From Nitrospira sp. CG24E (lineage in GTDB: Bacteria; Nitrospirota; Nitrospiria; Nitrospirales; Nitrospiraceae), in NCBI GenBank assembly GCA_002869895.2, contig NEWP02000009.1, forward strand, positions 95,421 to 138,020: a stretch of 42,600 bases of DNA. The letters run 5' to 3'. Positions 926 to 26,907 of the stretch are shown here, in pieces (position 1 is the stretch's first letter; every line of letters starts with the position of its first letter). The notes below the pieces were generated by a model that searched no databases, had not been told where the DNA came from, and worked only from the letters and a program-made list of their open reading frames with translations. The position numbers were made by a program, and so were the translations under genes.

Positions 926-1016
926 CTGGTTTGTTTTGTTTATTTGGTTGATTTGGTTCATCTGGTTAGTTTCGCTTAACCAAAAAACCAGACAAACCAA
1001 ATAAACAAAACAAACC
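926..1016. repeat. Period-9 T-rich hairpin array at a gene 3' end
   Basis: The left arm reads as five 9-nt units (CTGGTTTGT, TTTGTTTAT, TTGGTTGAT, TTGGTTCAT, CTGGTTAGT). A loop containing TTCG follows, then a right arm of complementary 9-nt units (AACCAAAAA, ACCAGACAA, ACCAAATAA, ACAAAACAA). The array ends on the stop codon of the dehydrogenase (1016-1018). Related arrays lie at 5326-5411 and 26829-26907. It is an AT-rich island in GC-rich DNA and probably acts as a transcript-end hairpin. Confidence 0.75.
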
Positions 1017-5325: not shown

Positions 5326-5411
5326 CTGGTTTATTTGGTTTGTCTGCTCCCTTTGGTTCATCTGGTTAGATTCGTTCAACCAAACAAACCAAACAAACTA
5401 AATAAACCTAA
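5326..5411. repeat. Period-9 T-rich hairpin array between convergent genes
   Basis: Left arm units CTGGTTTAT, TTGGTTTGT, CTGCTCCCT, TTGGTTCAT, CTGGTTAGA are followed by a TTCG loop and a right arm AACCAAACAAACCAAACAAA and onward. It fills almost the whole gap between the stop at 5324 (plus strand) and the stop at 5418 (minus strand). A bidirectional terminator is the simplest reading. The core is shared with 926-1016. Confidence 0.75.
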
Positions 5412-10835: not shown

Positions 10836-12098
10836 ATGCGCTCGCGAGTGGTCGTGACGGGATTAGGCATCGTCTCTCCCATCGGCATCGGAATCAGCGA
10901 CTTTTGGAAAGCCGCTCTGGCAGGCCAATCCGGCGTCTCGACCATTACGTCGTTCGACCCCATTCCTATGGAGGGCTACCGCTCAAAGATAGCCGGCCAG
11001 GTGCGGAATTTTTCGGTTGAACGGTTTCTCGACTCGGCCCATGGTGAGCGCGTTGACCGGTATGCCCAATTTGCCCTTGTGTCGACCAAAGAAGCATTGG
11101 CCGACTCGGGTCTTCAAATGGCGAAGGAAAACCCCCATCGCGTCGGGATCATCGTGGGGGCCGGCATGGGCGGAATGGTGATGGGCGAGCGTGAAGTCAC
11201 GCAGCTCTACCAGCAACAGAAACCCCACCGCGTCCACCCAAACTTTATCCCTACCATCACCCTCAATTCAGCTTCCGGCATTCTGGCGATGGCCTACGGC
11301 GCCAAGGGTCCTAACCTGACCATCTCAACCGCCTGCTCCTCCAGTGCCCATGCACTCGGGCAAGCCCTCCACTGTATTCGGGAAGGCCGCGCCGATGTGG
11401 TCATCACCGTAGGAGCCGACGCCAGCATTACCCCGCTCGTATTCGCAGGATTTTGTTCGCTGCGTGCGCTCTCGTCCAAATTTAACGATCATCCGGAGAA
11501 GGCCTCTCGACCCTTCGACCGATTGCGCGACGGGTTCATCATGGGCGAAGGAGCCGGGACACTGATCTTAGAATCGGCCGCTCATGCCAAGAAGCGCAAG
11601 GCGAAAGTCTATGCCGAGATTGCCGGCTACGCCGCGACGAGCGAGGCCTACCACATGGTGATCCCTCATGAGGACGGCATCGAAGTCGCCCACACGATGC
11701 AGCTCGCCCTCGCGGATGCAGGCATGACTCCTTCACAGGTGGATTACATCAATGCCCATGCCACTTCCACAACCATCGGGGACGCCGTCGAAGCCAAGGC
11801 GATTCGACGACTCTTTAAGTCGCGCACGGACAAAATTGCCATCAACGCCACGAAGTCGCTGATCGGCCACACACTCGGAGCCGCCGGCGCAATCGGAGGC
11901 ATTGCCTCGGTGCTGGCCCTCCACAGCGGTACAATTCATCCGACCGCCAACTACGATGACCCGGATCCAGCTTGCCCACTGGCGGGACTCTCTCGATCAG
12001 CACAAGAACGTCGGGTGAAGGTGGCCCTGCTCAATGCTTTTGGATTTGGCAGCAACAACGCCGCTGTGGTATTCAAACACGTGAAACGTGAAACGTGA
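10836..12098 (+). CDS. Beta-ketoacyl-ACP synthase II
   Basis: A 420-residue condensing enzyme of fatty-acid elongation, joining malonyl-ACP to acyl-ACP in the cytosol. The catalytic triad is intact: Cys167 in STACSSSAHA, His308 in NAHATSTT, His345 in LIGHTLGAAG. GMGGM and the closing NAFGFGSNNAAVVFK motif fit KASII (FabF). The start is ATG 10836 with AAAGGA about 11 nt upstream. The last residues, HVKRET, are encoded by the GTGAAAC repeat array, so the natural C-terminus has been replaced or extended by repeat DNA. It stands alone, without acpP or fabG beside it. Confidence 0.9.
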   Translation: MRSRVVVTGLGIVSPIGIGISDFWKAALAGQSGVSTITSFDPIPMEGYRSKIAGQVRNFSVERFLDSAHGERVDRYAQFALVSTKEALADSGLQMAKENPHRVGIIVGAGMGGMVMGEREVTQLYQQQKPHRVHPNFIPTITLNSASGILAMAYGAKGPNLTISTACSSSAHALGQALHCIREGRADVVITVGADASITPLVFAGFCSLRALSSKFNDHPEKASRPFDRLRDGFIMGEGAGTLILESAAHAKKRKAKVYAEIAGYAATSEAYHMVIPHEDGIEVAHTMQLALADAGMTPSQVDYINAHATSTTIGDAVEAKAIRRLFKSRTDKIAINATKSLIGHTLGAAGAIGGIASVLALHSGTIHPTANYDDPDPACPLAGLSRSAQERRVKVALLNAFGFGSNNAAVVFKHVKRET

Positions 12099-13174
12099 AA
12101 CGTGAAACGTGAAACGTGAAACGTGAAACGTGATTGTTTCATCAACTGACCAAACCGCTGAGTCATAAGATTGAACCCGTCCGCCAAGTTTCCGAACACG
12201 TCGGCTGTCACTTCACCGCGCTTCGTGAGGTCTCCCTTGCCGACGTCCGACACCAGAACCAGGAAGACCATCAACCGTTTTTGCATTTCGTCGCGCTCAT
12301 TTTCCGTTGTCTTCAAAGACGTGATAATGCGATCCAACATGGTGTTGAACGCAGTCGCCATCTGGCCCATTTCCTCTTTCGATGTGATGTTTGCGCGTGA
12401 TTGGTAGTTACCGCTGGCGGCCAATTGCGCAACCTGCGCGATGTGGCTGAGGTTGTTCGAGAAGAATTTGGCAATCCAAAACCCGATTCCAAGTCCGACC
12501 GCCATCGCGATAAGTCCGCCGATAATCAAGGTGATCGTCCCATTGAAAGCCGTAGCCTGGGCATCTTCGTTGAGATCCTTCGCCACGTCTTCCAAATCCA
12601 ATACCTGCTCTTGGTGGCGTGCGATAACCAAATCGAATGGCTGCTGCAGATTCACTCGCAGAGCCAACACGCCAAGTTCCCGTAGATTCTCGGCCTGTGC
12701 CGGCGTCAGGGACTTTCCAAAACTGTCGGCCAGCGCACTCAAGGCCCCTTCGGACTCCTTGAAATATTGTTCGATGGCCGGCTTTAAGATCGCCAAGTCC
12801 TTCGTCTCGTCCCGCCCAGATCGAGATACGCGGAGCACAGTCGCTGAATAGTCGGTGAGCACGCGGTTTACCTTCTCGCGATAGGGCGCCAGTCGTTTGA
12901 ACTCCGATACGAAGTCCGCATGCTTTGTAATGTTCGTCATGTTGGTCAAGATCTGATGGTGCACTGTCAGTGCGGAGCCCATTTCTGCGAAGTCGGCCAG
13001 CGGGACCGTATAGTCGACGTACACAGCCTGCGATGCGGCGCTCAACTGCCGAAGCGTCAGCACACCGAAGGTGGCCATCACAATAATAACGAGACTGACA
13101 AGACCGAAGCTCGCAAGCAGCTTTGTCCGTGTCGTGAGATTCAGTAATAGGTTGCTGCGATCTGTCTTAGCCAT
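11951..13174 (-). CDS. Chemoreceptor (MCP/PilJ-like), C-terminally truncated by repeat junction
   Basis: Begins at ATG 13172-13174 with GGGAGG just upstream. The recognisable part is 347 residues (12134-13174): an N-terminal membrane helix (residues ~14-37), a periplasmic four-helix sensor region, a second membrane helix (TLIIGGLIAMAVGLGIGFWI), a HAMP domain (AQVAQLAASGNYQSR) and a second HAMP-like segment (SDVGKGDLTKRGEVTADVFG) ending at FGQLMKQ. At 12133 the frame enters the GTGAAAC array and continues as antisense fabF to a stop at 11951. The whole methyl-accepting signalling domain that binds CheA/CheW is therefore missing. It is the last gene of an operon with CheW and a CheY-like regulator. 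It is probably non-functional or dominant-negative, and the rest of the operon (CheA would be expected) is absent here. Confidence 0.8.
   Translation of the reverse strand: MAKTDRSNLLLNLTTRTKLLASFGLVSLVIIVMATFGVLTLRQLSAASQAVYVDYTVPLADFAEMGSALTVHHQILTNMTNITKHADFVSEFKRLAPYREKVNRVLTDYSATVLRVSRSGRDETKDLAILKPAIEQYFKESEGALSALADSFGKSLTPAQAENLRELGVLALRVNLQQPFDLVIARHQEQVLDLEDVAKDLNEDAQATAFNGTITLIIGGLIAMAVGLGIGFWIAKFFSNNLSHIAQVAQLAASGNYQSRANITSKEEMGQMATAFNTMLDRIITSLKTTENERDEMQKRLMVFLVLVSDVGKGDLTKRGEVTADVFGNLADGFNLMTQRFGQLMKQSRFTFHVSRFTFHVSRFTCLNTTAALLLPNPKALSRATFTRRSCADRESPASGQAGSGSS
12081..12129. repeat. Perfect GTGAAAC tandem array (7 copies)
   Basis: Seven exact copies of GTGAAAC run from 12081 to 12129, with a partial eighth (GTGA). 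The left side encodes the last codons of fabF. The right side abuts the truncated chemoreceptor exactly where its homology stops. It shares the heptamer style of tracts at 3889, 21344, 24965, 28119 and 29900. Confidence 0.95.
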
Positions 13175-19114: not shown

Positions 19115-21244
19115 TTACAAGCCCTCAAATCGATAACTCAACCCACCATAGATTGCGATGCCCGGAGCCGGCATCACAAAACGTTCAACTGCACCCCCAC
19201 CCGTTACTGTATTTTGCGCTATTATGCCGGACGTATAGTAGCGCTGATCCAGCATGTTGTTGAGCATCAGGAATCCGCTCAGCTGCCCGCCTGGCACAGA
19301 CTGTTCGTATGCAATGCGACTATTGAGAGTAAAGTAGCCAGGAATACGCGGTTGCGCGTTTTCTTCGTCGCCAGTATGAAACTGCGTGCTCACATAAAGC
19401 CCCATCAACGAGACAGTCCATCCAGGTGCAGGATGATAATTCCCAGTTACACTCAATCGATTCTTCGGAACGAGAGGAATGCTGTCGCCCCTCTTTACGT
19501 TCTCCAGAAATGGCACTGAAAATGGAGTGCCTGGCACAAAATACGGGTTCAGGACTAGATCAGTCTGAAACGTCGCTTGAGTGTAGGTATAGTTCACCAT
19601 TCCATCAAAATACTGGCTGAACTTTGCTTTGAAGGTCGCTTCAACTCCCTGACGCCTCGACTCAGGGATATTCTGATTCGCCGGAGTCCCAAAGTTGCAG
19701 GTACTAGGATCTCCGCAGACGAGATAAATTTCATCCCGCACGTCAGCCCTGAACAGAGCCACACTCGCCTCACCCCAGGATTGTACCTGCACCTTTGCGC
19801 CTACCTCGTAATTATGGGATCGCATAGGCCTGAGGTTCGGGTTGCCCTGGCCGAATGGACCGATGCCAGAGCCGAAGAGCTCGTTATAGGTCGGAACGCG
19901 AAATCCCTGTCCGTAACTGAAATACAAACTCATACCTGACGTGACTAGATAAGTCAGTCCTGCACGAGGAGTTGTCCGGTGAAAGACTTTTGAGCCGTTA
20001 TTCGCTGCGTCCAAATTGTCGATAAAATCAAGATCATTGCGATCGTACCGAACCCCGCCGGTCAAGATCAGTTGGGGTGTCAGATTCAATGTGTCTTGGG
20101 CATAAAGCCCAAGAATTTCCTCGTCCGTGGATCGCAAAGAGGAAGAGGGGCCAAAGGGAAAGAAGGCCAGACTTCGATTCCCAAAATCATTTCTAGTGTA
20201 TTCACTTCCCAAGACAAAAGCATTGGAAAGGCCGAAGGCTTGGCTATTGTGGTTCAGCTGAAAAACCCCACCTCGCGATTCGGTCATGATATTGTTCGTA
20301 CCCCGCCCACTCTGAAACACTGTAAACTGCTCCTGTGCCAAGCGGCGATAGAATCCATTGGCGTTGACAGAAAACCCGAACGGAAACTCATGCCGCGCAT
20401 TCAACCGCACTACGTTCGTCTCTGAATCATAAAAGTCGCCCGGTGTAAAATTTCGCTTTGGGTCGATCGCGGCTTGGCTAAGGGGTAACGTCCCGGCCTG
20501 CTGCAGCCGGTCTTTGACATAGGTATAGGATACGGTGATATCCGTGTGCTCGGTCGGGCGATATCCCAGCTTGCCAAAAACCCGTGAAATCCGTGCAGCC
20601 GATTCATCGCGGAATCCCGACTCTGTCTCCCGACTGAAATTCGTGTAGTAATCAAATTTACCTATCGGCCCGCTCGCATTGAGGCTATATCGTTCACGGT
20701 GGAAACTACCAAACAAGGTCTGACCCGTCGCCTGATGTTTATCTGTGCCACGTTTTGTAATTATATTAATCACACCGCCCATCGCATTCTTGCCATAAAT
20801 TGCAGCAGCTCCCGGGATGATCTCGATCCGGTCGATCGTTTCATAGGGGATAAGGTCAAAATTGACAGTGTTAAAATCCGGTTCGTTCATCCGCTGACCG
20901 TCCACAAAAACTGTTGTGTTCGGGACCGGCTGGCCGTTAAACCCTCGCAGATCGATCGTTTGCTGAAAGGCATTGCCGATACCATCGTACATCACGATAC
21001 CGGTAGCCCCTTGAATCGCCTCTTGAACCGTTTTGGCCCCGGACTTTCGAATGTCCTCTGCCGTAATGACGGTTACTTTTGCCGGAAGGGTTCTGGCATC
21101 GACAGGAGCATCAGGAAGACGGGTGCTGGAAACGACGACCTCTCTGGTCTCAAGCGCATCATCTGACTGGGCATGGGCGGTGGAAGCTATGAGGCAACAC
21201 GACAGGAGAACACAGATAGAGAAACTTGTAAAATAGGTACGCAC
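19115..21244 (-). CDS. btuB: TonB-dependent outer-membrane receptor, BtuB-like
   Basis: 709 residues. A signal peptide (cleavage after STAHA) is followed by a TonB-box-like REVVVSSTR, a plug domain (TVITAEDIRKSGAKTVQEAI; VDGQRMNEPDF; IEIIPGAAAIYGKNAMGGVI), a 22-strand barrel region and a terminal aromatic strand (YGGLSYRFEGL). It imports a chelated ligand across the outer membrane using TonB. A cobalamin riboswitch directly upstream and cobQ/pduO downstream point to cobalamin or cobinamide; the ligand is inferred from context. It starts with GTG (21242-21244), with AAGGGAGG 6 nt upstream. No TonB/ExbBD genes are in the window. Confidence 0.88.
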   Translation of the reverse strand: MRTYFTSFSICVLLSCCLIASTAHAQSDDALETREVVVSSTRLPDAPVDARTLPAKVTVITAEDIRKSGAKTVQEAIQGATGIVMYDGIGNAFQQTIDLRGFNGQPVPNTTVFVDGQRMNEPDFNTVNFDLIPYETIDRIEIIPGAAAIYGKNAMGGVINIITKRGTDKHQATGQTLFGSFHRERYSLNASGPIGKFDYYTNFSRETESGFRDESAARISRVFGKLGYRPTEHTDITVSYTYVKDRLQQAGTLPLSQAAIDPKRNFTPGDFYDSETNVVRLNARHEFPFGFSVNANGFYRRLAQEQFTVFQSGRGTNNIMTESRGGVFQLNHNSQAFGLSNAFVLGSEYTRNDFGNRSLAFFPFGPSSSLRSTDEEILGLYAQDTLNLTPQLILTGGVRYDRNDLDFIDNLDAANNGSKVFHRTTPRAGLTYLVTSGMSLYFSYGQGFRVPTYNELFGSGIGPFGQGNPNLRPMRSHNYEVGAKVQVQSWGEASVALFRADVRDEIYLVCGDPSTCNFGTPANQNIPESRRQGVEATFKAKFSQYFDGMVNYTYTQATFQTDLVLNPYFVPGTPFSVPFLENVKRGDSIPLVPKNRLSVTGNYHPAPGWTVSLMGLYVSTQFHTGDEENAQPRIPGYFTLNSRIAYEQSVPGGQLSGFLMLNNMLDQRYYTSGIIAQNTVTGGGAVERFVMPAPGIAIYGGLSYRFEGL

Positions 21245-21282
21245 AGAGACCTCCCTTAGACTCGAAGGGTCCAGTCGAAAGC

Positions 21283-21510
21283 TCCGTCGGATGGGTCTCC
21301 TGACTTGCGGCTCGTCGTTCCCCTGCGCCTTCCCATCTAGAACGTAAACCGTAAATCGTTATGCGTTAACCGTGAAGATTTCTTCCTGCGTTTAACGGTT
21401 CACGAACAACGTTTAACGTCCCCTGACAGTGGCATTCGTGCAGAGTCACTCCCCGCTTACAGTGGCGGCACCGTGATGGATTTGCACCATCTTCCCCGTC
21501 CCCGACAGTG
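21283..21510 (-). promoter_or_regulatory. Cobalamin riboswitch upstream of the TonB receptor
   Basis: On the minus strand it contains GCCGCCACTGTAAGCGGGGA, AATGCCACTG, GATGGGAAGGCG and a B12 box (AAGTCAGGAGACCC), the core elements of the class. P1 can form between CTGTCGG and CCGACGG. It ends 38 nt before the receptor start. GAGACC in the B12 box region can pair with GGTCTC (21246-21251), which directly follows the Shine-Dalgarno sequence, suggesting control of translation. A heptamer insertion (21344-21417) occupies the variable arm. Confidence 0.93.
21344..21417. repeat. Heptamer hairpin inserted in the riboswitch variable arm
   Basis: Left units on the plus strand are GTAAACC, GTAAATC, GTTATGC, GTTAACC, GTGAAGA. 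Right units on the minus strand are GTTAAAC, GTTGTTC, GTGAACC, GTTAAAC. The two arms are roughly complementary. It lies between the conserved GCCACTG and GGGAAGG elements of the cobalamin aptamer, in a region known to vary in length. Confidence 0.8.
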
Positions 21511-21600
21511 TATTGACTCGAACAACCTATCTCCTCGGTTAAACAGCACCCCCTGGAACCAATAGGCGGCTCTGGTGCAAAAGCTCGCCCATGCTAAAAC

Positions 21601-22500
21601 TCATAGCATCCCGGACACAGCAACGGTCTGATGCCAGTTTTCACCGGGCAAGGAGACACGCGGCAGCCCCGTTTCCGGATGCGAGTCAACCAAGACTCGA
21701 CAGCCATAAACCTCATTCAACACTTGAGGGTGAATCACCTCCTGAGGAGAACCGATGCAGACCACAGTTCCTTGTTTCATGAGCAATATACGATCACAGT
21801 ATTGGCTGGCCAGATTGATGTCGTGTGAAACGAGCAGCACCGTCATCTGCGATTGAGCGTGAATACGTTTGAGAATCCGGCATACATCCAGCTGATGGTT
21901 AAGATCGAGATGCGCGGTCGGTTCATCGAGCATTAGCACGCGAGGGGCCTGGGCCAAGGCGCGCGCGAGCAACACTCGCTGTCTCTCTCCCGCTGACAGC
22001 GTATCGATCATCCGGTGGGCCAGATGCGTAACATCCGTCTGGGCCATAGCCTCTTGTGCGACGGCAAGATCTTCTTGCTGCTCCCACCCGACAAGATTCC
22101 ACAACCCACTTCGGCGATAGGGAAACCGCCCCATCAACACCATGTCCAATACGGAAAACGGAAAGTCATACGAGAGATCCTGTGGCATATAGGCCACCTG
22201 CCTGGCGATTGATTCACGCGACAATGTGCCAAGCTCAACCCCGAAGAGACGTATCACTCCTTTTTCAGGCCGCACGAGCTTCATCAGCAGCTTCAGCAAG
22301 GAGCTTTTCCCGGACCCGTTGGGCCCAATCACACCGAGAATCTCGCCCTGCTGGACGGTGAATTCCATTCCATCGATGGCCCAAGATAAGCGGTTACCGG
22401 GCTGACTGCCCCGAATAGAGTGGTACCGGAACGCTAACTGCCGCACCTCGATGACCGGCAGAGGAGAAGGCCCAATGCTCTCTGATGTTTGTTCGCTCAT
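21601..22500 (-). CDS. btuD: Cobalamin/Fe-siderophore-type ABC importer ATPase
   Basis: 299 residues. The cytosolic ATPase of the importer. Walker A is GPNGSGKSS, then the Q-loop (AYMPQDL), signature (LSAGERQR), Walker B (VLMLDEPT) and H-loop (LVSHD) are all intact. The start is the ATG at 22498-22500, overlapping the btuC stop by 4 nt (ATGA), which marks translational coupling. About 40 extra C-terminal residues follow the core. With a cobalamin riboswitch in front of the operon the substrate is most likely B12; heme or siderophore import is the alternative. Confidence 0.92.
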   Translation of the reverse strand: MSEQTSESIGPSPLPVIEVRQLAFRYHSIRGSQPGNRLSWAIDGMEFTVQQGEILGVIGPNGSGKSSLLKLLMKLVRPEKGVIRLFGVELGTLSRESIARQVAYMPQDLSYDFPFSVLDMVLMGRFPYRRSGLWNLVGWEQQEDLAVAQEAMAQTDVTHLAHRMIDTLSAGERQRVLLARALAQAPRVLMLDEPTAHLDLNHQLDVCRILKRIHAQSQMTVLLVSHDINLASQYCDRILLMKQGTVVCIGSPQEVIHPQVLNEVYGCRVLVDSHPETGLPRVSLPGENWHQTVAVSGML

Positions 22501-23618
22501 GCGAAAAACCGATACTTCCGAGTCATCAAGAGATAGATGAAAAATGGCCCGCCGATCAAGGCCGTGATGACACCGACTGGAATTTCTGCCGGGGCCACGA
22601 CAGTACGGGCAACCGTGTCCGCAACCATGAGCAGGATCCCCCCACCCAACGCGGAAACCGGTAACAGGAGCCGGTGATCTGCCCCGCACAAGATCCGCAC
22701 AAGATGCGGAACGACCATGCCGACGAATCCGATCATGCCGCTGACGGACACGACGGCCCCCGTCAGCACAGCCGAAACAAGGAACACAGTCCGTTGCACT
22801 CGATCCGAATCGACCCCCGAGGAGCGAGCGGCATCTTCACCCACCGCAAGAAGATTCAAGGCCTGGCTTTCACGAAGGAGCAAGACAACAGCGATCAGCA
22901 AGCAGCCGCCAATACCGATCAGTGCCGTGAGGCTCGGTGCAGTGAGAGTCCCCATCAGCCACAGGACAACCCGATAAAGAGAAGTCGGGTTCAAGATGGA
23001 TGTCGCAAACATCATGAGTGCAGAACAGATGGCATTCACAATCACTCCTGCAAGCAACAGTTTGTGCATCGGCAGCTGCCCTTGCGAGGCTGCGATCCCA
23101 TAGACCAGTGCGATCGAGAGACCGCCTCCGATAAAGGCGAACAACGGCAACCCAAGCCCTCCTATTATTGAGCCAAGCCCGATGGCAAACCCGATCGTCG
23201 CTCCAAATGCGGCCCCGCTTGAGATACCCAGCACGTAGGGATCTGCCAGCGGGTTGCGCACGAGAGCTTGCAGCGCAGCTCCTGTGATCGCCAATGCTGC
23301 TCCCACAAATAAGCCCATCAAGACTCGCGGAAACCGGACATCCCAAACGATGATGCCCGCGACATCCTCTCCCTCAGTCTTAGAGAATGTCAGGGCTGAC
23401 CACAGCTCTGCCATGGTCAGTGCGTGAGCTCCGAACTGAAGACAGAACACGATAACCCCGCAGGTCAGAAGAACCATACAGCCCATCACCCCATACCACC
23501 GGCGAGCGCGCAGGGCCTGCCACGATGCGATCCCTTCAAAGGTCGGCAATGGAGCAGACGAGGCTATCGTCGCTGAATCCGACAGGCTGGTCTGGGATGG
23601 AGAGGGATGGACGATCAT
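22497..23618 (-). CDS. btuC: Cobalamin/Fe-siderophore-type ABC importer permease
   Basis: 373 residues in the FecCD/BtuC family. A cytoplasmic N-terminal extension of about 45 residues precedes roughly ten membrane helices. Family motifs: RFPRVLMGLFVGAALAITGA, NPLADPYVLGISSGAAFGA, GMIGFVGMVVPHLVR and EIPVGVITALIGGPFFIYLL. I use ATG 23616-23618, which overlaps the btuF stop as ATGA. The middle gene of btuF-btuC-btuD. Confidence 0.92.
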   Translation of the reverse strand: MIVHPSPSQTSLSDSATIASSAPLPTFEGIASWQALRARRWYGVMGCMVLLTCGVIVFCLQFGAHALTMAELWSALTFSKTEGEDVAGIIVWDVRFPRVLMGLFVGAALAITGAALQALVRNPLADPYVLGISSGAAFGATIGFAIGLGSIIGGLGLPLFAFIGGGLSIALVYGIAASQGQLPMHKLLLAGVIVNAICSALMMFATSILNPTSLYRVVLWLMGTLTAPSLTALIGIGGCLLIAVVLLLRESQALNLLAVGEDAARSSGVDSDRVQRTVFLVSAVLTGAVVSVSGMIGFVGMVVPHLVRILCGADHRLLLPVSALGGGILLMVADTVARTVVAPAEIPVGVITALIGGPFFIYLLMTRKYRFFA

Positions 23619-24625
23619 GGATTCCTTACGGGAAACGGTTCCGTAAACGCTTCGGGATGAATGGCCTTCGCGAGAAGTTCGAGCCCTTCCACGATTCGCG
23701 GCCCCGGTCGGTCGACTAACACACTGGGCACGAGAACCAGACGATTGTGTTTGACCGCTGAGAGGCTCGACCACCGCCGCCACCGTTCCTGATCTTCATC
23801 GGGGATACCTTCCGCTGTACCGACTGGGAAGATAATGAGTTCCGGATCGCGGGCCAGCACCTCCTCCAGCGCGAATCTTGGGTAGGCCACCGCCGTGTCC
23901 GCTGCGATATTAGCGCCGCCCGCTGCTTCGATCAGTTGATGAATAAAACTCCCAGGCCCTACCGTTTGTAGCGGGTCTGTATTCAATACATAGAGGACAC
24001 GCTGGCGGGCCAGTGACTGCGTACGCTCCTTAACAACCGCAATACGTTGCCGAATGGTTGCGGCCAACTCGTCCCCCGCCTTGCTTCGATCAAACAACCG
24101 GGCAATCATTTGAATCTGTCCAAGCACATCGTCAAGCTGTGCGGCTTGCAACACGAAGGTGGGGGTCTTGACCCGATCAAGCTGTTGGAGAAGATCCGGC
24201 TGGATCATGTCCTGAGGCACCAAGACCAGGTCCGGCTTGAGAGCTAGAATTTGCTCGATGCTCGGATTCATTCCTCCCAAGTGTGTCTTGCGTTGCGCTT
24301 CGGAAGGATAATCGCAGAATGGCGTTACTGCCACGACCTTTTCCTCAAGACCGAGCGCAAAGAGTATCTCCGTCACGTTCGGCGCCATCGACACCACACG
24401 ACTTGGCGCCTTTGCAAGAAAAAGCTTTCTCCCCAATGCATCCACAAATGTCCGTGGCGCAACGTGTGCCATAAAAGGCATGCCGGTCAAAATTCCCTGT
24501 TGTCGTCGTTTCATATTATCCGTCTCATCGTCAGGAATAGCCGACGCCGGCCACAAGACAAGCAGCACGACGGCGCCGAGCAAACAACCAGCCACTCGGC
24601 TTGTACGGAATAGGTCAGAGCCCAA
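23615..24625 (-). CDS. btuF: Periplasmic cobalamin-type substrate-binding protein
   Basis: 336 residues. An N-terminal export segment (CLLGAVVLLVLWPASA) is followed by a class III binding-protein fold: RVVSMAPNVTEILFALGLEEKVVAV, PSIEQILALKPDLVL and VDRPGPRIVEGLELLA. It delivers ligand to BtuC. The start is taken as TTG 24623-24625. The only visible Shine-Dalgarno-like sequence, GGGGA, lies within the 3' arm of a terminator-like hairpin (24627-24659), so hairpin formation would both stop transcription and mask the site. The first gene of btuF-btuC-btuD. Confidence 0.88.
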   Translation of the reverse strand: MGSDLFRTSRVAGCLLGAVVLLVLWPASAIPDDETDNMKRRQQGILTGMPFMAHVAPRTFVDALGRKLFLAKAPSRVVSMAPNVTEILFALGLEEKVVAVTPFCDYPSEAQRKTHLGGMNPSIEQILALKPDLVLVPQDMIQPDLLQQLDRVKTPTFVLQAAQLDDVLGQIQMIARLFDRSKAGDELAATIRQRIAVVKERTQSLARQRVLYVLNTDPLQTVGPGSFIHQLIEAAGGANIAADTAVAYPRFALEEVLARDPELIIFPVGTAEGIPDEDQERWRRWSSLSAVKHNRLVLVPSVLVDRPGPRIVEGLELLAKAIHPEAFTEPFPVRNP

Positions 24626-24626
24626 T

Positions 24627-24659
24627 AAAAAATCCCCAAGGCCTGGACAGACCCTGAGG
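24627..24659 (-). terminator. Intrinsic terminator overlapping the btuF ribosome site
   Basis: On the minus strand, CCTCAGGG and CCTTGGGG (8 pairs including G-U) flank a 10-nt loop and run straight into ATTTTTT, then the TTG start of btuF. It is a plausible expression platform for the cobalamin aptamer about 245 nt upstream. Confidence 0.7.
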
Positions 24660-24905
24660 ATTGCACCCGCAACTCATCCTCGCCGATTCCCCAGCCCACG
24701 AGGGAACGTCGGTCTTGGGAACCTACCAGAGGATCGCCATTCTGCTGCGGCGAACGATCTTGGACCATCTGCCGTGTTCTCGGCTTGAAACGATCCTCAA
24801 CGTATTGCAGAGAATACGCTTCCGGTCGTTTTCACGCCTGCGGCCTTGCATCTGATCCAATCTCCTTCGCCTCACGACGAAGGGACCCTCTGGCAGGCTC
24901 CCGTT
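24640..24905. repeat. Palindromic element, family 2 (long copy) in the btuF leader
   Basis: The stretch 24745-24905 aligns with the element at 32275-32458: TGCTGCGGCGAACGA, GTTCTCGG, ATCCTCAACGTATT, AGAGAATACG, GCCTGCGGCC. It is longer at the left by about 80 bp. The ends are only weakly complementary (GCCTGGACAG / GCCTGCCAGA). It fills the gap between the riboswitch and the btuF start. The exact left limit is uncertain. Confidence 0.6.
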
Positions 24906-25126
24906 CCTGGCAGGTCTTCTGGCTCATGGTTCACCCTACTCCCCGCACCTTCCCATCTGGAGACGTGAATCGTAAATCGTTATTCGTTAATCGAGGAGAT
25001 CTACTCTTGCGATTAACGGTTCACGAATAACGTTTAACGTCCCAAAGACAGTGGCATTCACGGGTTTCGTCCCCATTTACAGCGGCGGGACCGCGAGGGA
25101 CTCGCACCCTCTTCCCTTACCCAGGA
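24905..25126 (-). promoter_or_regulatory. Cobalamin riboswitch upstream of btuFCD
   Basis: On the minus strand it shows GCCGCTGTAAATGGGGAC, AATGCCACTG, GATGGGAAGGTGCGGGG and a consensus B12 box GAGCCAGAAGACCTGCC (24909-24925). P1 pairs CTCCTGG with CCAGGA. It is about 280 nt upstream of btuF. A heptamer hairpin is inserted at the same position as in the first riboswitch. Confidence 0.93.
24965..25038. repeat. Heptamer hairpin inserted in the second riboswitch
   Basis: Left units are GTGAATC, GTAAATC, GTTATTC, GTTAATC. Right units on the minus strand are GTTAAAC, GTTATTC, GTGAACC, GTTAATC. The innermost units are exact complements and the others partial. It is the same size and position as the tract at 21344-21417, but the sequences have diverged between the two. 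Confidence 0.8.
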
Positions 25127-25143
25127 GTCACAATGTGGGGGGC

Positions 25144-25173
25144 ACTCTAGGAGACCGGGAAGCGGGTTGTCAA
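25144..25173 (-). promoter_or_regulatory. Promoter for the btuFCD riboswitch transcript
   Basis: On the minus strand, TTGACA (25168-25173), an 18-nt spacer and TAGAGT (25144-25149). Transcription would begin just before the aptamer. The rest of 25174-25376 holds no gene I can support. Confidence 0.6.
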
Positions 25174-25376
25174 GTTCATTAATGTCCGACTTCCCATCCC
25201 CTGCGCAAGTGTGGACAGGAACCTGTCAAAACCCAGCGGAAACAGGGTGAAAGACTGATGTTTTTCACAACAGTCCACGGCATGGGCTTTGCTCAACTCT
25301 GGGGAATGACTTCTGGGCCTCGGACAGAGCCTCACATGAATGACCAACCCCAGTGGCAACGGTTCCTGACATACCT

Positions 25377-26828: not shown

Positions 26829-26907
26829 ATTGGTTTGTTCAGTTTATTTGGTTGATTTGGTTTATCCGATTAACCAAACAAACGAAATAGACCAAACAAA
26901 CCAAATA
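26829..26907. repeat. Period-9 T-rich hairpin array between convergent genes
   Basis: Left units ATTGGTTTG, TTCAGTTTA, TTTGGTTGA, TTTGGTTTA lead to a short turn (TCCGATTA). A right arm of AACCAAACAAACGAAATAG and ACCAAACAAACCAAAT follows. It lies between the stop at 26804 and the SemiSWEET stop at 26925. It is the third member of the family at 926-1016 and 5326-5411, though its loop lacks TTCG. Confidence 0.7.

Follow-up and report, generated by a model that had tools for sequence, protein, structure and literature searches.

Two cobalamin riboswitches in one Nitrospira genome carry, at the same place in their aptamers, a long hairpin built of 7-nt units. Where does such an arm come from, and why do both riboswitches have it? 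We addressed these questions in a stretch of 42,600 nucleotides from Nitrospira sp. CG24E (contig NEWP02000009.1), hereafter the window, and in related genomes. The genome of the window is a draft of 3.45 Mb and is labelled G000 among the genomes compared. A first-pass annotation of the window offered two origins for the arm: descent of both riboswitches from one duplicated riboswitch, or a repeat family that targets this arm.

Two cobalamin riboswitches with a heptamer arm

Both elements are genuine cobalamin riboswitches of family RF00174. R1 scored 96.5 bits (E 5e-23) and R2 scored 80.3 bits (E 2e-18) against the Rfam gathering score of 31.5, and both matched positions 1-189 of the 189 in the model. 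The first-pass annotation had located them correctly, although its limits (24905-25126 and 21283-21510) were slightly short of those given by Rfam (24892-25174 and 21273-21536), and its account needed correcting in that both elements act on the minus strand. R1 lies upstream of a btuF-like gene and R2 upstream of a btuB-like gene, with like placement in relatives. Judged from sequence, each is apparently an ordinary, functional cobalamin riboswitch. The features under discussion are as follows.

12079..12133, plus strand: perfect one-armed ACGTGAA array, 7.9 copies, outside any riboswitch (TRF, 100% match); spans the 3' end of a gene
19115..21244, minus strand: btuB-like TonB-dependent receptor gene (PF00593 and PF07715)
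21273..21536, minus strand: cobalamin riboswitch R2 (RF00174), leader of the TonB-dependent receptor (btuB-like) gene; the next gene encodes Plug and TonB barrel domains
21335..21427, minus strand: heptamer hairpin of R2, 93 nt, in the same stem as in R1 (period 7 z 6.8; autonomous fold z -2.55)
21601..22500, minus strand: btuD-like ABC ATPase gene (PF00005, E 2e-32)
22497..23618, minus strand: btuC-like FecCD permease gene (PF01032, E 4e-91)
23615..24625, minus strand: btuF-like periplasmic binding protein gene (PF01497, E 1.6e-34)
24892..25174, minus strand: cobalamin riboswitch R1 (RF00174), leader of the btuF-btuC-btuD-like transporter genes; the next gene encodes a Peripla_BP_2 protein
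24955..25049, minus strand: heptamer hairpin of R1, 95 nt, in place of a 14-16 nt stem-loop (arms ~24962-24993 and ~25010-25041; period 7 z 7.2; autonomous fold z -4.85)

In both riboswitches, a hairpin of degenerate heptamers (CGTNANN) lies between the GCCACUG and GGGAAGG elements, where relatives can have a stem-loop of 14-16 nt. Its full length is 93-95 nt, instead of the approximately 75 nt proposed at first. One arm consists of units such as CGTTAAA, CGTTATT, CGTGAAC, and CGTTAAT, and the other arm of complementary units. An inverted-repeat scan of the window found the R1 arms (24962-24993 and 25010-25041) to be complementary at 78%. Self-match at lag 7 gave z-scores of 7.2 for the R1 insert and 6.8 for the R2 insert relative to dinucleotide shuffles, and across all lags between 2 and 15 no shuffle reached either value. 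These values confirm the two arms of 7-nt units reported in both riboswitches, and place their period above shuffled expectation. Across the window, the two-unit pattern CGTKAAHCGTKAAHCGT had 19 matches with two or fewer mismatches, compared to 0.08 expected and a maximum of 2 in any shuffle. We take the heptamer-bearing stem to be part, probably, of the optional P8-P10-P11 domain of Barrick and Breaker.

Predicted folding of R1 and R2 gave identical arm pairing whether the arm was folded alone or within the whole aptamer. The predicted pairs are mostly blocks of CGU with ACG, and small internal loops recur between them every 7 nt. These models point to an arm that folds on its own and leaves the aptamer core unchanged.

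A third RF00174-like element of the same genome fell below threshold (L095, G000:C6:33881-34085, 30.7 bits), as did one in G015 (L094, G015:C100, 23.8 bits). Both have an altered core and are possibly diverged or degraded cobalamin riboswitches.

The same stem in related genomes

We read this stem in 32 genomes of the genus and in a sample from the family that was chosen for length. Cobalamin riboswitches were present in 29 of the 32 genus genomes. Stem length was bimodal, at either 14-16 nt or 60-104 nt. Two odd values in the genus (48 and 55 nt) and a few stems in the family sample (18-48 nt) fell outside this division. Long stems, which we call filled, made up 37 of the 61 genus stems read. 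Together with 17 from the family sample, they gave 54 stems of at least 60 nt that were tested for period. The strongest period was 7 or 14 in 53 of them (lag-7 z at least 2.6, mean z 4.8), the one non-periodic case being the stem of G123. Mean signal at lags besides 7 and 14 was not above 0, and 49 of the 54 stems were significant at 0.05 against the highest score that shuffles gave at any lag. The first-pass annotation had put forward a check for relatives with no 7-nt phase: relatives with an empty stem do exist, yet nearly every filled relative is periodic.

By sequence, the 54 filled stems fall into 15 clusters, and about 14 different period-7 alleles occupy the same stem. At least four unit families are represented (CGTNAAN, GTGATSA, GTCAATS, and GCTGAWR, plus variants), and they took up the stem independently. 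An alignment of 12 homologous inserts showed variation at 13 of its 45 paired columns and at 17 of the 23 unpaired ones (p = 7e-4). Double-sided compensatory changes were few, affecting 1 of 26 pairs in allele A and 4 of 36 in the GTGATSA set. Their rarity is as expected for young copies and is no proof of selection on pairing.

The arms are unlikely to be an artefact of assembly, as both stems are filled in G062, which is reported as a single contig. The btuB-leader heptamer stem of G008 (L267, G008:C1) has a run of N at its apex. This suggests that hairpins of this kind interrupt assemblies, and their number in draft genomes is probably underestimated.

Other RNAs and more distant riboswitches served as controls. 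TPP riboswitches of the genus had no inserts and were all about 103 nt, and RNase P RNAs of the genus were likewise without inserts at about 428 nt, none being longer and a few calls being slightly shorter or at contig ends. As far as these two RNAs go, their insert-free state rules out a general invasion of structured RNAs. Outside the family, we read 15 cobalamin riboswitches at this stem, most of them chosen for length and 10 of them aligned to the model. Their extra sequence was mostly in other loops, and period 7 was absent from all three that had a longer stem at this site. A period-7 arm is therefore not a general trait of long cobalamin riboswitches, whose inserts outside the family lie elsewhere or are without that period.

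Turnover and exchange of arms

Turnover of the arm is rapid. The core of the btuF riboswitch shares 153 of 154 bases between G008 and G009, whereas the stems measure 102 and 15 nt (the btuB stem of G008, with its run of N, was left out of this comparison). Similarly, the cores of G027 and G028 share 152 of 154 bases with stems of 100 and 16 nt. These filled/empty pairs show that the aptamer core stays intact with or without the arm. Filled and empty states were scattered over the BtuF tree, and some species had the arm in one riboswitch and not in the other. In some of the pairs compared, the lower stem changed its base pairs along with the insert, a pattern more in keeping with a replaced stem than with a clean insertion into its loop. 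On a finer scale, R1 of G010 is missing exactly one 7-nt unit from one arm.

Arms are also exchanged between riboswitches. The R1 and R2 inserts of G000 are 82% identical, compared to 60% and 52% for the flanking riboswitch bodies, and the ranges over G000 and G015 are 82-88% for inserts versus 52-60% for bodies. The btuB-leader insert of G015 has an identity of 0.88-0.89 to btuF-type inserts and only 0.80 to the btuB-leader insert of G000, with bodies at 0.94-1.00. As this insert is nearer to the btuF type despite its orthologous body, the arm has passed from one locus to another. A longer module of the btuB arm, CGTTCTTCCAGATAAGCCACTGG ... GGAAGGCGGAAGAA, travels with its insert and occurs in several operon backgrounds. 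Recombination via conserved aptamer motifs would be the simplest route for such exchange.

The btuF-leader insert of G031 (L051, G031:C255) is 97% identical to that of G000, while the adjacent BtuF is only 49% identical, implying that leader and gene of G031 differ in history.

Heptamer hairpins across genomes

The first-pass annotation described the arm unit as a genome-wide repeat, and pattern searches of the window's own genome agreed, with 188 two-unit matches compared to 0 for a reversed-pattern control. Copies outside riboswitches were 70-80% identical across most of the hairpin. According to simple, crude ORF calls, the sampled copies were mostly two-armed hairpins filling short gaps between co-directional genes, and often stopped a few bases short of the start codon. 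This heptamer family was found in all 32 genus genomes, and elsewhere in the genus two more families (GTGATSA and GTCAATS) are common. Riboswitch carriers of CGTNAAN had 24.8 copies per Mb versus 7.4 in non-carriers (p = 9e-5), and the corresponding densities for GTGATSA were 13.0 and 0.9 per Mb (p = 1e-4). Riboswitches carry the unit family that abounds in their own genome, an association that is confounded by shared ancestry because the genomes are non-independent.

The window also contains a one-armed array outside any riboswitch (12079-12133), in which 7.9 copies of ACGTGAA run across the stop codon of a ketosynthase-like ORF. It is probably recent, given that it is one-armed and 100% identical.

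Known classes of mobile repeat did not account for the hairpins. They resemble REP/BIME in being repetitive intergenic palindromes, but REP/BIME are 20-40 bp, whereas the heptamer hairpins span 80-100 nt, have a 7-nt period, share no tag, and are not associated with Y1/RAYT genes. Y1/RAYT transposases were absent from 13 of the 32 genomes, all of which still have heptamers. The numbers of both were not correlated (rho = 0.26, p = 0.15), and no heptamer pairs were found near Y1 genes in 86.8 kb. On these results we reject an origin as REP or REPIN elements mobilised by RAYT. The MITE model fared no better, as the empty/filled alignments contained no target-site duplication, and the alleles had no terminal tag in common and ends unlike one another. 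With no common duplication or tag and no linked transposase, the term insertion rests here on the family match and the empty/filled pairs. A plasmid search returned just short core matches, to Candidatus Manganitrophus.

Origin of the arm

We consider it likely that a tolerant arm of the aptamer has been repeatedly colonised by genome-wide heptamer hairpins and exchanged, with the core left intact. The apex of a peripheral stem, normally a stem-loop of 14-16 nt, would have been replaced by a copy of a heptamer hairpin of the kind that appears to be abundant in short intergenic gaps of the window genome. We infer this physical route for the first insertion, and we suppose the arm to be nearly neutral for ligand response. 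Within the Nitrospiraceae, the arm would act as a recurrent landing and exchange site, occupied independently by unrelated heptamer families and turned over between near-identical relatives. Arms would probably be swapped between riboswitches, within and between genomes, through homologous recombination that is anchored in the conserved motifs of the core. The 7-nt phase would make for a robust arm, in that the stem would fold on itself without disturbing the core and could be resized by whole 7-nt units. Successive units are so alike that the CGU/ACG pairs would stay in register when a unit is gained or lost or when pairing slips. Of the origins offered at the outset, a repeat family that targets the arm stands as a description of the outcome, with about 14 period-7 alleles from at least four families in one stem. 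Active targeting does not follow, as tolerance plus selection could match the same pattern.

Several other explanations were weighed. Slippage during replication, together with template switching at hairpins and a preference for 7 nt, could have made the hairpin grow in place, involving no copying from elsewhere in the genome. According to PMC4692102 and PMC4679880, no long simple repeat is more over-represented than the heptamer in many bacteria, and slippage of the polymerase is given as the cause; both the perfect array at 12079-12133 and the unit lost from R1 of G010 are consistent with such growth. However, the unit family in the riboswitch is the one common in the same genome, and the inserts of R1 and R2 agree in the order of their units and in their apex sequence (82-91% identity), making them too alike for separate growth. 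Moreover, filled/empty pairs with only one or two changes in the core differ by a whole 100-nt arm at once, and no intermediates of 20-60 nt were found in the genus save the two odd readings. In-place growth is thus an unlikely origin. Far less probable still, and rejected on the identities of inserts and bodies, is the duplication proposed at first, in which R1 and R2 would stem from one riboswitch already bearing the arm. The inserts are indeed alike in plan and in 82% of positions, but the bodies are just 52-60% identical, R2 of G015 sets an R1-like insert on an R2 body, and relatives have empty orthologues of both riboswitches.

The arm might instead be an adaptive module, kept by selection for an effect on the kinetics of the riboswitch, the stability of the RNA, or the binding of a protein. 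Conservation is higher in paired than in unpaired columns, filled stems are common and persist across species, and the genome-wide copies also lie in gaps upstream of start codons, all of which would suit a function. Against this, near-identical riboswitches exist both with and without the arm, unrelated unit families replace one another, and some species are filled at one riboswitch only. Independently folding, variable insertions that leave the core undisturbed are also known in riboswitches (PMC2258182). Overall, we regard the adaptive account as quite unlikely. A further, rather doubtful idea extends colonisation itself: heptamer hairpins may be a distinct non-autonomous mobile class whose copying prefers stem-loop apices, such that the riboswitch arm is a true hot spot and the 7-nt period is required for copying (e.g., slip-tolerant priming on a hairpin) instead of being a by-product of slippage.

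Relation to known repeat-built stems

By analogy, the closest precedent for a colonised and exchanged arm is the P6b arm of the trnL(UAA) group I intron of Nostoc and Calothrix, which is built of the heptamer classes TDNGATT and NNTGAGT and has undergone repeated replacement of the whole arm (PMC4476775). In both cases, a peripheral stem of a structured RNA is made of alternative 7-nt motifs whose classes are replaced between close lineages, length changes unit by unit, and a repeat-built stem is tolerated. The Nitrospiraceae stems share with P6b a 7-nt period in both arms (in the window and in 53 of 54 filled stems) and alternative unit classes at one site (15 clusters and at least four families, scattered on the BtuF tree). 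Neither P6b motif describes the CGTNANN units of the window, which makes this arm an analogue of P6b and not a member. The two also differ in host RNA (riboswitch versus group I intron) and lineage (Nitrospiraceae versus cyanobacteria). The P6b stem is always repeat-built, whereas the riboswitch stem alternates between short empty and filled states, has more unit families, and comes with demonstrated genome-wide source copies.

STRR heptamers were reportedly described by Vioque in 1997 within the RNase P RNA gene of heterocystous cyanobacteria. That case likewise places heptamer repeats in the stem of a structured RNA, but here a riboswitch hosts the repeats and the RNase P RNA of the genus is free of inserts. 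Riboswitch aptamers are known to accept variable, non-conserved stem-loop insertions at tolerated sites with no effect on the core (PMC2258182); by comparison, the Nitrospiraceae inserts are non-arbitrary, in that almost every one has a 7-nt period and comes from a repeat family spread through the genome. Intergenic heptamers include TAACTGA in Beggiatoaceae (PMC4679880) and GGGNATC in Xanthomonas and Nostoc (PMC4692102). As far as the available text of these papers goes, they too occupy intergenic gaps, often just before start codons, but mainly as direct arrays, whereas those of Nitrospira are mostly two-armed hairpins; the same text reports no insertion into riboswitches. The open-access literature searched yielded no report that describes heptamers in Nitrospira or repeats within cobalamin riboswitches, and it contained no precedent for a riboswitch arm of heptamer repeats with near-isogenic empty/filled pairs.

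Repeated replacement of the arm, even in near-identical relatives, implies that an RNA sensor of B12 tolerates a fast-changing arm of repeat DNA. The pairs G008/G009 and G027/G028 form a natural, near-isogenic series of riboswitches with and without an arm of 90-100 nt, making the effect of a peripheral insertion on the B12 aptamer directly testable. These arms extend the little-understood heptamer repeats of bacteria from introns and intergenic gaps to riboswitches, and their exchange around an intact core bears on the origin of riboswitch peripheral domains.

Hairpins of period 9

Hairpin families of period 7 and period 9 exist side by side in the window genome. Two-armed intergenic hairpins of period 9 were found at window positions 928-1016, 5328-5408, and 26830-26904, with the unit AACCAAACA / TTTGGTTGA and lag-9 z-scores of 5.3-5.6. 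Outside the family, one cobalamin riboswitch (L309, G219:C129) has an arm of 58 nt in the same stem with a weak 9-nt period (z 3.1) and GTTTAAGCC-like units, and is perhaps a period-9 counterpart of the heptamer arm.
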